Assembly (NCBI GenBank): GCA_029862125.1
Contig: JAOTXY010000005.1
Coordinates: forward strand, 1 to 64,000
Origin: Gammaproteobacteria bacterium
Lineage (GTDB): Bacteria > Pseudomonadota > Gammaproteobacteria > GCA-001735895
Direction: 5' to 3'
DNA: 64,000 nt
The notes below the pieces were generated by a model. It worked only from the letters and a program-made list of their open reading frames with translations, did no database searches and had not been told where the DNA came from. Shown here one piece after another: positions 19,393 to 43,391 of the stretch. The first letter of the stretch is position 1; every line of letters starts with the position of its first letter. A program made the translations under genes and the position numbers.

Positions 19393-19409
19393 TGCACTAA
19401 TTTGGTGCA
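19393..19409 (+). promoter_or_regulatory. NtrC-type binding site upstream of glnA
   Basis: TGCACTAATTTGGTGCA, matching both half sites of the NtrC consensus TGCACYNNNNTGGTGCA; a weaker second copy TGCACGATAAATTGGCA lies at 19444-19460. Confidence 0.7.
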
Positions 19410-19521
19410 GATATATTGAAATCGCCATATAATCGTTCAATTTTGCACGATAAATTGGCATCGAGATATTAATCGGTACAATTCCACCTGTTTTTGACCC
19501 CCGATTTTGGAGATTTAAGTC

Positions 19522-20931
19522 ATGTCTGCGTCTGATGTATTGAACAAGATTAACGAGTACGGCGTGAAATTCGTCGATTTCCGCTTTACCGATACCAAGG
19601 GAAAGGAGCAGCATGTCTCGGTCCCGGCCAGTACCCTCGAAGAAGATACCTTTACTGAGGGAAAAATGTTTGACGGCTCTTCAGTCGCCGGCTGGAAAGG
19701 CATTAACGAATCGGACATGATCCTGATGCCTGACCCGGCGACCGCGGTGCTCGATCCGTTTACCGACGAACCCACCATTAACATCACCTGTAACGTGGTT
19801 GAGCCGGCTACTGGCGAAGGCTACGAGCGTGATCCACGCTCCATCGCCGAACGCGCCGAGGCTTACCTGAAGTCATCCGGAATCGCCGACGTTGCCTACT
19901 TCGGTCCGGAAAACGAATTCTTCGTTTTTGACGACGTCAAGTGGTCGACCGAAATGGGTCATTGTTCCTACCAGATCGAGTCTGAAGAAGCGGCGTGGAG
20001 TTCAATCAAAATGTACGAAGACGGCAACATCGGTCACCGTCCCGGCGTCAAGGGTGGGTATTTCCCGGTACCACCAGTTGACTCCTTGCATGACATCCGT
20101 TCGGCGATGTGCCTGGCGATGGAAGAAATGAACCTCAAGGTCGAGGTTCACCACCACGAGGTCGCAACCGCGGGGCAGTGTGAAATCGGGGTTGAATTCA
20201 ATACCCTGGTGCGCAAGGCCGACGAGGTCCAGGTGCTGAAGTACTGCGTGCATAACGTGGCGCACAGCTATGGCAAAACAGCGACTTTCATGCCGAAGCC
20301 ACTGGTAGGTGACAATGGTAACGGTATGCACGTGCACATGTCGCTCGTCAAAGACGGCGACAACCTTTTTTCCGGAGAAGGCTACGGTGGCCTGTCTGAT
20401 ACAGCACTGTATTATATCGGCGGGGTGATCAAGCACGCACGTGCCATCAATGCCTTTGCTAACGGTGCTACCAATAGCTACAAACGCCTGGTGCCGGGCT
20501 TCGAAGCCCCGGTCATGCTCGCCTACTCGTCGCGCAACCGTTCCGCTTCGATTCGTATCCCTTACGTCAGCAATCCGAAAGCCCGCCGCATCGAGGTGCG
20601 CTTCCCCGATTCGACCGCCAATCCTTACCTCGCGTTTGCCGCATTGATGATGGCTGGCCTCGATGGCATCAACAACCAGATTCACCCGGGTGAGGCAATG
20701 GACAAGGATCTCTACGATTTACCGCCTGAAGAAGAGGCCGAAATACCACAGGTTGCGTTTTCTCTCGACCAGGCCCTCGAAGCGCTCGACCAGGATCGTG
20801 AGTTTTTGAAAGCTGGTGGCGTGTTCACCGACGATGTTATCGACGGTTATATCGATCTCAAAAACGAGGAAGTTGACCGCCTGCGCCTGGCGACCAACCC
20901 GATCGAGTTCGACCTTTACTACAGCTGCTAG
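19522..20931 (+). CDS. glnA: Glutamine synthetase type I
   Basis: [20 protein letters not shown]...[13 protein letters not shown]...[11 protein letters not shown]...[10 protein letters not shown]...LYDLPPEE. Confidence 0.97.
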
Positions 20932-21020: not shown

Positions 21021-22100
21021 ATGTCGCAGCCAAACCTGAAACTGGCCCCGCCCACCGACACCGGTCTTCGTATCCTGGATACGCTTAATTCGTCGATCCT
21101 GTGCCTAGATAGCGAACAATGCATCACCTATGTCAACGCGGCCGGCGAGGCACTGTTCGAAAGCAGCGCGTCGAACCTGGTCGGGCGCCGTTTCGACAGC
21201 TTGCTGAGCCAGGTTGAGCCTTCCAGCATACTCTCGAAACTGGCCCTCGATTCGATCGCATTTACCGAACACGAAGCGGTAATCACGCTTGCCGATGGCA
21301 GGGAAATTATTGCCAACTACAGCATTTATCCACTCGACGGGCGGACAACAAGTGACGAAATCGTGCTGGAGATCCGGCAGTCTGAACACCAGGCGCAATT
21401 TGCGCAGGATGAACTCAATCAACTGCAACAGCAGGCCACCCAGCAGCTCGCGCGTGGACTCGCGCATGAAATCAACAATCCGTTAGGCGGTATTCGAGGC
21501 GCGGCGCAACTGTTGCAACGCGCGCTCGACCGTCCCGAGTGGACCGAGTATACCGAGGTCATCCTCAGCGAAGTTGACCGCCTGCAATCCCTGACCAGCA
21601 AGATGCTCGTGCCCGGAAGCAAAATGCAGCTCACGGAAATCAACATACTCGAGGTGCTGGAACATATCCGCAAGATAATCCTGGCAGCCGAGCCCGATCG
21701 CATCAAGATAAGACGTGACTATGACCCCAGTATTCCGGGGATCATGGCGGATCGCGATATGCTGATCCAGGCGTTCCTGAATATTGCTCGTAATGCCGTA
21801 CAGGCGATCGAGGGCAACGGTGAAATTACCTTCAAGACCCGCGTGGGTCGACAGTTCACCATCGGCCAGATTACCCATCCGCTGGTAGTACAGGTCGACA
21901 TTACCGACAGCGGCCGGGGTATTCCAAATGATCTCGGAGAAACTATTTTTCTGCCGATGATAACTGATAAACCTGAGGGCAGCGGCCTCGGCCTGCCGAT
22001 TGCACAGGAAATAATCTCCCGCCACGGGGGCACTATCCACCTGCACAGTTCTGACTGCGGAACCACTTTTAGCACCATTTTGCCCATGGAAAAGACATGA
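21021..22100 (+). CDS. ntrB: Nitrogen regulation histidine kinase NtrB (GlnL)
   Basis: PAS-type N-terminus, GLAHEINNPLGGIRGAAQLLQRAL H-box, N- and G-boxes (DSGRGIPNDLG, GSGLGLPIAQEIISRHGG). Confidence 0.92.
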   Translation: MSQPNLKLAPPTDTGLRILDTLNSSILCLDSEQCITYVNAAGEALFESSASNLVGRRFDSLLSQVEPSSILSKLALDSIAFTEHEAVITLADGREIIANYSIYPLDGRTTSDEIVLEIRQSEHQAQFAQDELNQLQQQATQQLARGLAHEINNPLGGIRGAAQLLQRALDRPEWTEYTEVILSEVDRLQSLTSKMLVPGSKMQLTEINILEVLEHIRKIILAAEPDRIKIRRDYDPSIPGIMADRDMLIQAFLNIARNAVQAIEGNGEITFKTRVGRQFTIGQITHPLVVQVDITDSGRGIPNDLGETIFLPMITDKPEGSGLGLPIAQEIISRHGGTIHLHSSDCGTTFSTILPMEKT

Positions 22101-22741
22101 ATCTAGCAACTAACATTCCACCCCTTAAAATCTGGATAATCGATGACGATCAATCAATGCGCTGGGTACTGGAAAAGACCCTGTCCAATAATGGCTACCA
22201 GGTATCCGCTTTTGAATCCGGCTCGGTGGCACTCGCCACTTTCAAACGCACCGAACCCGAAGCACGTCCCCACCTGATCATCACCGATGTACGCATGCCC
22301 GGGATTAACGGTTTCGAATTGCTCAAACAGGTAAAGAACATATCACCGCAAACCCCGATCATCGTGATGACGGCCTATACCGACCTCGATACCACGGTGC
22401 AGGCATTCCAGGAGGGCGCTTTTGAATACCTGCCCAAACCTTTCGATATCGATGACGCACTTGAACTGGTTGCCCGAGCCTGTGAACCCGTGGTTGAAGC
22501 CGGTACCAATCTGCCGCGCTTTGCGGACGAAATCGGTGACTGGCAGGCGCAACTGCGCCTGTGGGCAAAGCAGCAACTGTCACAGGGCGAAACCGACATT
22601 CTTAAGAACGCCGCCAGGACCTTCGAAAAAACACTGCTGGATTGCGCGCTCGAAGCCACGCGCGGGCGTAAACAAGACGCGGCGCGACTGCTCGGCTGGG
22701 GCAGGAATACGCTGACCCGCAAATTGAAGGAGTTAAGTTAA
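22097..22741 (+). CDS. NtrC-like response regulator lacking the AAA+/sigma54 interaction domain (receiver + Fis-type HTH only)
   Basis: Receiver IWIIDDDQSMRWVLEKTLSNNGYQV...LIITDVRMPGINGFELLKQVK...MTAYTDLDTTVQAFQEGAFEYLPKPFDIDDA continues directly to TFEKTLLDCALEATRGRKQDAARLLGWGRNTLTRKLKEL; no Walker A/B, no GAFTGA; total 214 aa. Confidence 0.9.
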   Translation: MNLATNIPPLKIWIIDDDQSMRWVLEKTLSNNGYQVSAFESGSVALATFKRTEPEARPHLIITDVRMPGINGFELLKQVKNISPQTPIIVMTAYTDLDTTVQAFQEGAFEYLPKPFDIDDALELVARACEPVVEAGTNLPRFADEIGDWQAQLRLWAKQQLSQGETDILKNAARTFEKTLLDCALEATRGRKQDAARLLGWGRNTLTRKLKELS

Positions 22742-22847: not shown

Positions 22848-22998
22848 AGTCATCCCCGCGAAAGCGGGGATCTTGCAATGGTGGCGCTGTTACGAGATCC
22901 CCGCTTTCGCGGGGATGACTCTAAAGTAGCGGGGATGACTCTAAAGTAGCGGGGATGACTCTAAAGTAGTGGGGATTACTCGAAGTAGTGAGGATGAC
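22848..22998. repeat. 26-bp perfect inverted repeat (agtcatccccgcgaaagcggggatct ... agatccccgctttcgcggggatgact) followed by a decaying 20-bp tandem repeat (ggggatgactctaaagtagc, about 4.4 copies)
   Basis: Direct read; arms 22848-22873 and 22895-22920; tandem units from 22911 to 22998. Confidence 0.9.
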
Positions 22999-41996: not shown

Positions 41997-43391
41997 TTAG
42001 TCCTTGACCTCTAGCCGATCCATGCGGCCATACAAAGTAGTACGATTGATGCCAAGCATTTCAGCCGCCTTGCTGACATTGCCATCGTGCTCACGCATCG
42101 CCAGGTCGATAACTTCTTTTTCGACAGCCTTAAGCAATTGATCAAGCTGAAAACCGCTATCTTGCAATGCACTATGCAGCCAGTCTTCGCTGCTTGACGC
42201 GCCGTTGTGTCGTTGTAGCCCTGACATTTCCCTCTTCAACACCTCGGGCTTTATTGTTTGTCCCGGATACTTCGCTGAAAGCCTGATTATTATATTGCGT
42301 AATTCTCGCACATTTCCCGGAAAAGTATAATCATTCCAAAGCCTTAGTGCATCCTCATCAAGCTGGAAAGTTGCGACTTCATCCGCGACCTGCTGCATGA
42401 AATAAAACAGTAATTCATTCTTGTCACCATTGCGTTCCTTGAGCGAGGGCACACGCAAGGTCAAAACGCTGAGACGATGGTATAAATCTTCGCGGAACTG
42501 GTTGGTTTTTATGGCTTCAAATATATCCTTGTTGGTTGCAGCGAGAACCCGCGCCGAAGAGTGGCGTGGCTGGGTTTCACCAAGTCGATAATATTCACCA
42601 TTTTCGAGTACGCGCAGTAACTTGGCCTGCAGGTCCAGGGGCAGATCCGCGACTTCATCAAGCAATAAGGTCCCCGAGCCGGCTTCTTCGAAAAATCCGT
42701 TCTTGGTGTCCGTGGCACCGGTAAAAGCGCCCTTGACGTGCCCGAACAATTGCGACTCGAGCAACTCGCCGTTGAAAGCGGCGCAGTTCAAGGTCATGAA
42801 GGGTTCCTGTTTGCGCGAACTGCAGCGATGCAGATTGCGCGCGGCGACTTCCTTGCCACTGCCTGATTCGCCTTCGATCAATACCGGGTAGGGCGAATCA
42901 GCTAACTGGCGTATTTGCATACGCAACAGTTCAATTTCTTCGCTGGAGCCGACGATGCCTTCAATGTCATCGTGTCCCGCGTCAGCGCCGCCGCCGGCAA
43001 TTATCTGTCGTTTCAGACGTACCTTGATTTCAGCGATATCGCAGGGCTTGGAGATGAAATCGACAGCCCCGTCTTCCTTGGCCTGAAACAGGTGCTTCTT
43101 GTTATCCTGGCCGGATAATACCAGCACACGGGTCGAGGGGTGCATTTGGGATATCTTTCGAATCACCGCGAGCCCTTCGTCGGGACGATGCGTATTGGGA
43201 GGGAGACCCAGGTCGACCAATGCCAATGTCGGAGAATCCGACATATCACTCATCAACTTGAAGCTGGTAGCCCGATCCGAGGCGCGCTCTATCTCGTATT
43301 CTTCACTGAGCACATACTCGAGACTGTCGGCGATAATTGCATCATCGTCGACCAACAACAGTGTCGGTTTCTTTTCACTGTCCAAAGGCAT
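41997..43391 (-). CDS. PrsR-like sigma54-dependent response regulator
   Basis: Receiver LLLVDDDAIIADSLEYVL...LALVDLGLP; AAA+ GESGSGKEVAARNLH and GHVKGAFTGATDTKNGFFEEA; Fis HTH GNVSKAAEMLGINRTTLYGRMDRL. Confidence 0.9.
   Translation of the reverse strand: MPLDSEKKPTLLLVDDDAIIADSLEYVLSEEYEIERASDRATSFKLMSDMSDSPTLALVDLGLPPNTHRPDEGLAVIRKISQMHPSTRVLVLSGQDNKKHLFQAKEDGAVDFISKPCDIAEIKVRLKRQIIAGGGADAGHDDIEGIVGSSEEIELLRMQIRQLADSPYPVLIEGESGSGKEVAARNLHRCSSRKQEPFMTLNCAAFNGELLESQLFGHVKGAFTGATDTKNGFFEEAGSGTLLLDEVADLPLDLQAKLLRVLENGEYYRLGETQPRHSSARVLAATNKDIFEAIKTNQFREDLYHRLSVLTLRVPSLKERNGDKNELLFYFMQQVADEVATFQLDEDALRLWNDYTFPGNVRELRNIIIRLSAKYPGQTIKPEVLKREMSGLQRHNGASSSEDWLHSALQDSGFQLDQLLKAVEKEVIDLAMREHDGNVSKAAEMLGINRTTLYGRMDRLEVKD

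Follow-up and report, generated by a model that had tools for sequence, protein, structure and literature searches.

An NtrC ortholog without the AAA+ domain in marine sediment Gammaproteobacteria, a probable DNA-binding regulator of sigma-70 promoters

NtrC is the model of ATP-driven, enhancer-dependent transcription. The canonical protein requires its AAA+ domain to open the sigma-54 holoenzyme, and this domain is held to be indispensable. For the NtrC of Caulobacter and that of Rhodobacter capsulatus, which have no GAFTGA motif, activity at sigma-70 promoters has been reported, and the Caulobacter protein activates glnBA (PMC10274813). VspR of Vibrio cholerae, as cited in the same paper, is another relative of the bacterial enhancer-binding proteins (bEBPs) that works at sigma-70 promoters without ATP; in that citation it is described as a bEBP lacking GAFTGA, not as one lacking the AAA+ domain, and it belongs to a system other than NtrB-NtrC (PMC10274813). 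The response regulators RegA, PrrA and ActR consist of a receiver followed by a Fis-type helix-turn-helix in about 180-215 aa. In the open-access literature that we searched, no published AAA+-less NtrC was found.

In this study, we analyzed a stretch of 64,000 nucleotides (hereafter the window) in which the genes glnA, ntrB and ntrC follow one another in the order typical of canonical NtrC. The original prediction described an intact ORF of 214 aa directly after ntrB, with overlapping start and stop codons (ATGA), and this was borne out: the start ATG of the short ntrC overlaps the stop codon of ntrB. The genes of the locus and the parts of the short NtrC are as follows.

19522..20931, + strand: glnA, type I glutamine synthetase
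21021..22100, + strand: ntrB, NR(II) sensor kinase (HisKA, HATPase_c) that exceeds the PRK11073 equivalog cut-off
22097..22741, + strand: short ntrC, 214 aa, receiver and NtrC-type DNA-binding domain without AAA+ (ORF, Pfam, 1NTC alignment, AlphaFold, alignment with the NtrC of G016)
22127..22489, + strand: receiver domain, residues 11-131 (Pfam and ortholog alignment)
22490..22537, + strand: variable linker, residues 132-147, predicted to be disordered, at the position of AAA+ in full-length NtrC
22538..22738, + strand: NtrC dimerisation and Fis-type DNA-binding domain, residues 148-214, with GWGRNTLTRK intact

Shortly downstream of ntrC, at 22909-22998 of the window, lies a tandem array of a 20-bp unit (GCGGGGATGACTCTAAAGTA, 4.6 copies), adjoined at about 22850-22925 by an inverted repeat of the start of the array.

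Pfam found only two domains in the short NtrC, Response_reg at residues 12-124 (E=2.4e-29) and HTH_8/Fis at residues 174-213 (E=6.3e-14). The receiver carries the phosphoacceptor Asp and the acidic pocket, and D16, D17, D64, T92 and K114 are invariant in 17 short orthologs, so the signalling part that had been read from its DD, D and K positions is intact. The Fis-type C-terminus proved to be more than a helix-turn-helix: an alignment of the last 66 residues with the NtrC DNA-binding structure 1NTC (E=6e-15) runs from end to end and takes in the dimerisation helices. The recognition helix GWGRNT.TRK is common to the 17 short orthologs. When aligned to the NtrC of congener G016, which is full length, the protein lacks the AAA+ stretch, and both flanks, the receiver and the DNA-binding domain, align cleanly. 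Consistent with the original prediction, the 214 residues contain no Walker A, Walker B or GAFTGA. AlphaFold predicted two confident domains joined by the disordered linker, with four helices in the DNA-binding part, and the linker is the sole fast-evolving part of the protein among the orthologs. The AAA+ domain is thus absent as a whole, which places the protein outside the sigma-54 bEBPs, and therefore the short NtrC cannot remodel sigma-54 polymerase.

The best NCBIfam model for the short NtrC is TIGR01818 (NtrC), with a match split into two stretches and a score of 221.6 bits, below the equivalog cut-off of 558.6. An identity as RegA, PrrA or ActR was rejected, since the score was 67.5 bits against the NF033791 cut-off of 250 and the match ran mainly through the receiver; the layout is the same, whereas the DNA-binding domain is that of NtrC. 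Compared with canonical NtrC, or NR(I) (TIGR01818, E. coli GlnG), the protein agrees in operon position, receiver, DNA-binding domain and palindromes at glnA and glnK, and differs in that AAA+ is gone, the TIGR01818 score is below the cut-off and no sigma-54 promoter is seen at its targets. With the proteins of Caulobacter and R. capsulatus it shares the absence of the sigma-54 contact loop, and these two have the reported sigma-70 activity; unlike the short NtrC, which has lost the whole domain, they keep AAA+, and ATP binding or hydrolysis is reported to be needed (PMC10274813). Operon position, receiver, complete DNA-binding domain and palindromes confirm that the window protein is an NtrC ortholog from which AAA+ is cleanly absent.

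An assembly deletion, a chimera or a decaying pseudogene could produce such an ORF, and the draft of the window genome is fragmented, with 188 contigs and a completeness of 91%. We searched related genomes, as had been proposed, and the receiver plus DNA-binding architecture was found in 22 independently assembled genomes of the genus (60-100% identity), nearly all genomes compared being metagenome-assembled (MAGs). One carrier is the Olavius algarvensis Gamma 3 endosymbiont, represented by a scaffold, and several others are independent MAGs from sediment. The pairwise dN/dS of the short NtrC was 0.03-0.16 for pairs with unsaturated synonymous change, and that of the short-form DNA-binding domain was 0-0.16; full-length NtrC pairs gave close values (0.10-0.15) in the same columns. 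The short NtrC is under selection. The short ntrC is no assembly error or pseudogene, given its presence in 22 congeners and on an independent scaffold of a symbiont, a dN/dS well below 1 and invariant phosphorylation residues. The coordinated promoter changes described below also argue against an artefact, to which we assign a practically negligible probability. A motorless NtrC is carried by an entire group of marine sediment bacteria, with some congeners keeping the full-length form.

A full-length NtrC elsewhere in the genome could have made the short protein a mere paralog. The window genome has rpoN, so sigma-54 is retained as predicted, and it has five sigma-54 activators, which appear to be FleQ-like and FleR-like (C26), PilR/AtoC-like (two, C71 and C120) and PrsR-like (one), the FleQ, FleR and PilR labels coming partly from reading the sequences. 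None of the five is a full-length NtrC, and none has the NtrC C-terminus. The one within the window, the GAFTGA protein foreseen at 41997-43391, has a PEP-CTERM response regulator model as its best match; it is therefore PrsR-like and not a nitrogen regulator. TIGR01818 was searched in 17 genomes, ten short-form genomes among them. Only G007, G016, G031 and G035 have a protein above the cut-off, and no full-length NtrC by this cut-off was found in the ten short-form genomes; the two short-form genomes outside the genus likewise have no protein above it. rpoN was found in most of the genus members searched.

With rpoN and five AAA+ activators remaining in the window genome, the short NtrC might act in trans and supply DNA specificity to the AAA+ ring of another sigma-54 activator, PilR/AtoC-like or FleR-like. 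We regard this as highly improbable, as sigma-54 boxes are absent at the NtrC targets and the genome G041 has a short NtrC without rpoN.

Full-length NtrC with GAFTGA is retained in the sister genera and in congeners G007 and G016. The NtrC of another congener, G014 (L034 / L124), has 451 aa; the AAA+ region is present with Walker A kept, an 18-residue deletion takes out the GAFTGA loop, and Walker B is changed from LFLDEIGD to VLLKNIDT. This protein resembles the state described in Caulobacter and R. capsulatus, and its motifs suggest a transitional, apparently ATPase-dead form on the way to losing sigma-54 activity. The best tree groups the short forms of G010, G024 and G027 with the full-length G007 and G016, apart from the main short clade, which suggests two AAA+ losses within the genus. 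Two losses were preferred to one and the single-loss tree was not rejected (AU p=0.08); therefore, we do not claim two losses.

Outside the genus, two distant short NtrCs were found, L060 (genome G401, titled Acidiferrobacteraceae) and that of G041, a genome of 1.7 Mb. The L060 gene is located downstream of glnA and ntrB, and the only rpoN match in its genome has two in-frame stop codons. No rpoN match was found in the genome of G041, a second lineage with a short NtrC (L123, contig C14), and upstream of glnA there, two NtrC palindromes with TATAAT and TATTAT inside them stand about 30 bp from each other. Among the matches listed from 369 class-wide genomes, the other NtrCs are full length or cut by contig ends, and further short forms beyond those listed may exist. 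Four congeners with an estimated completeness of 87-96% (G011, G017, G018 and G025) yielded no ntrC. G011 and G017 have glnK promoters of the short clades and G018 has one of the sigma-54 type; because these three keep clade-typical promoters, missing contigs are the likely cause, and true loss is possible.

In the window genome, five exact TGCAC-N7-GTGCA sites were found. Two of them precede glnA and glnK-amtB, respectively; we set aside the remaining three, which lie within coding ORFs. The elements upstream of glnA are as follows.

19393..19409, + strand: site I, NtrC palindrome TGCACTAATTTGGTGCA, conserved in the family, one of the five exact sites
19444..19460, + strand: second, half-degenerate NtrC-like site TGCACGATAAATTGGCA, overlapping the glnA -35, present only in the main short-NtrC clade
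19455..19482, + strand: sigma-70-type glnA promoter TTGGCA-N16-TACAAT, 10/12 consensus matches, conserved in the genus

At glnA, a TTGGYA-type -35 and TACAAT stand 16 nt apart in each of the 18 genus members measured, those with full-length NtrC included, with the -10 variants TAAAAT in G013 and TACACT in one genome; the sister genera retain the -10 and have a looser -35. Shuffled regions of equal size yield about 0.8 such matches by chance, and therefore it is conservation, not score, that supports the promoter. A hidden sigma-54 promoter in the conserved block was considered and rejected, because no GG-N10-GC match exceeded shuffles at glnA in any family member examined. The distance from site I to the -10 is 83-85 or 73-74 nt in all 18 congeners, that is, one helical turn apart, and 71 (G035) and 69 (Bse_11) in sister genus genomes. 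These length changes cluster on one helical turn with P of about 0.0007 against random indels of up to 12 bp, in a coarse test based on six changes assigned by hand and taken as independent. Since congeners with full-length NtrC share the promoter and have no sigma-54 box there, sigma-70 control of glnA probably preceded the AAA+ loss, and the change at glnK probably accompanied it.

At glnK, a GG-N10-GC sigma-54 box was found in 8/9 genomes with a verified full-length NtrC; in the ninth, G034, it is imperfect. It lies 102-111 nt downstream of an NtrC site in seven genomes and 78 nt downstream in G045. The box is present as well in G018, a genome whose assembly yielded no ntrC. Taken individually, six of the eight boxes reached p <=0.03 against shuffles and those of G031 and G032 did not; therefore, the case for a sigma-54 promoter rests on the shared position. 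At that position, the box was found in none of the 15 genomes with a verified short NtrC, nor in G011 and G017, which belong to short clades and have no ntrC contig. One GG-N10-GC match in G003 falls inside its NtrC sites, and G014 has neither NtrC sites nor the box. The promoter comparisons are phylogenetically non-independent, as they go back to one or two losses within the genus. The glnK sigma-54 promoter appears to have been lost together with the AAA+ domain.

The operators themselves are kept at glnK, with the pair of NtrC sites 31 bp apart in nearly all genomes. The proximal site keeps an indel-free distance to each of two conserved blocks across 15 genomes of the main clade (clade A), and the intervening sequence varies. 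The block xATxxTAACS would put NtrC at about -41 and the block TTGCNN-N16-CAAAAT at about -78, giving two possible promoter positions. Together, the NtrC sites kept at glnA and glnK, the lost glnK sigma-54 box and the conserved sigma-70-type glnA promoter lend strong, though indirect, support to the prediction of a plain DNA-binding regulator of sigma-70 promoters.

We believe it fairly likely that NtrB-NtrC signalling here drives such a regulator, probably an activator, a reading drawn from promoter and protein sequence. NtrB would phosphorylate D64 of the short NtrC, and phosphorylation would alter the occupancy of the ancestral palindromes at glnA and glnK-amtB by the dimer. Bound dimers would contact sigma-70 polymerase, probably activating it under nitrogen limitation, at glnA through a sigma-70-type promoter already there in the full-length-NtrC relatives and at glnK through paired sites now at fixed distances from conserved sigma-70-like elements. 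The promoter anatomy is compatible with a sigma-70-dependent response-regulator activator; the phosphorylation dependence, the sigma-70 usage and the sign of control are inferred. One point against this reading is that a Caulobacter NtrC engineered to lack AAA+ did not function on ammonium (PMC10274813); that is a different protein at different promoters.

Another concerns the sign of control. In the main short clade, the half-site TTTGCAC has been gained next to the glnA -35, and a second site over a near-consensus -35 would suit repression. E. coli NtrC represses the sigma-70 promoter glnAp1 (PMC3870243), which makes repression the main rival, and the glnA operators of G041 themselves contain TATAAT. 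The short NtrC might thus be chiefly a repressor that blocks polymerase at or near the glnA and glnK sigma-70 promoters, with nitrogen control reversed or exerted by derepression. We consider this unlikely: a simple repressor has no need of a site I that lies well upstream, in helical phase and at a conserved distance, and the candidate upstream glnK promoter lacks a good -35. It would also run against physiology for NtrC-P to repress glnA in nitrogen starvation, unless phosphorylation weakens DNA binding.

We therefore keep activation as the preferred reading of the sign. As for the wider history, we lean slightly toward the view that NtrC, originally an ATP-driven enhancer-binding protein of the sigma-54 system, became a motorless sigma-70 regulator on more than one occasion, with the same kinase, sites and core targets, a rewired glnK and an apparently ATPase-dead intermediate in a congener. 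For annotation, an NtrC ortholog that falls below the NtrC cut-off is a warning. The lineage offers a series from full-length NtrC, through AAA+ without GAFTGA and Walker B, to no AAA+ at all, with matched promoter changes at the protein's own targets. Such a series allows tests of how a circuit is rewired from sigma-54 to sigma-70, and of what a receiver and a DNA-binding domain do without the motor.
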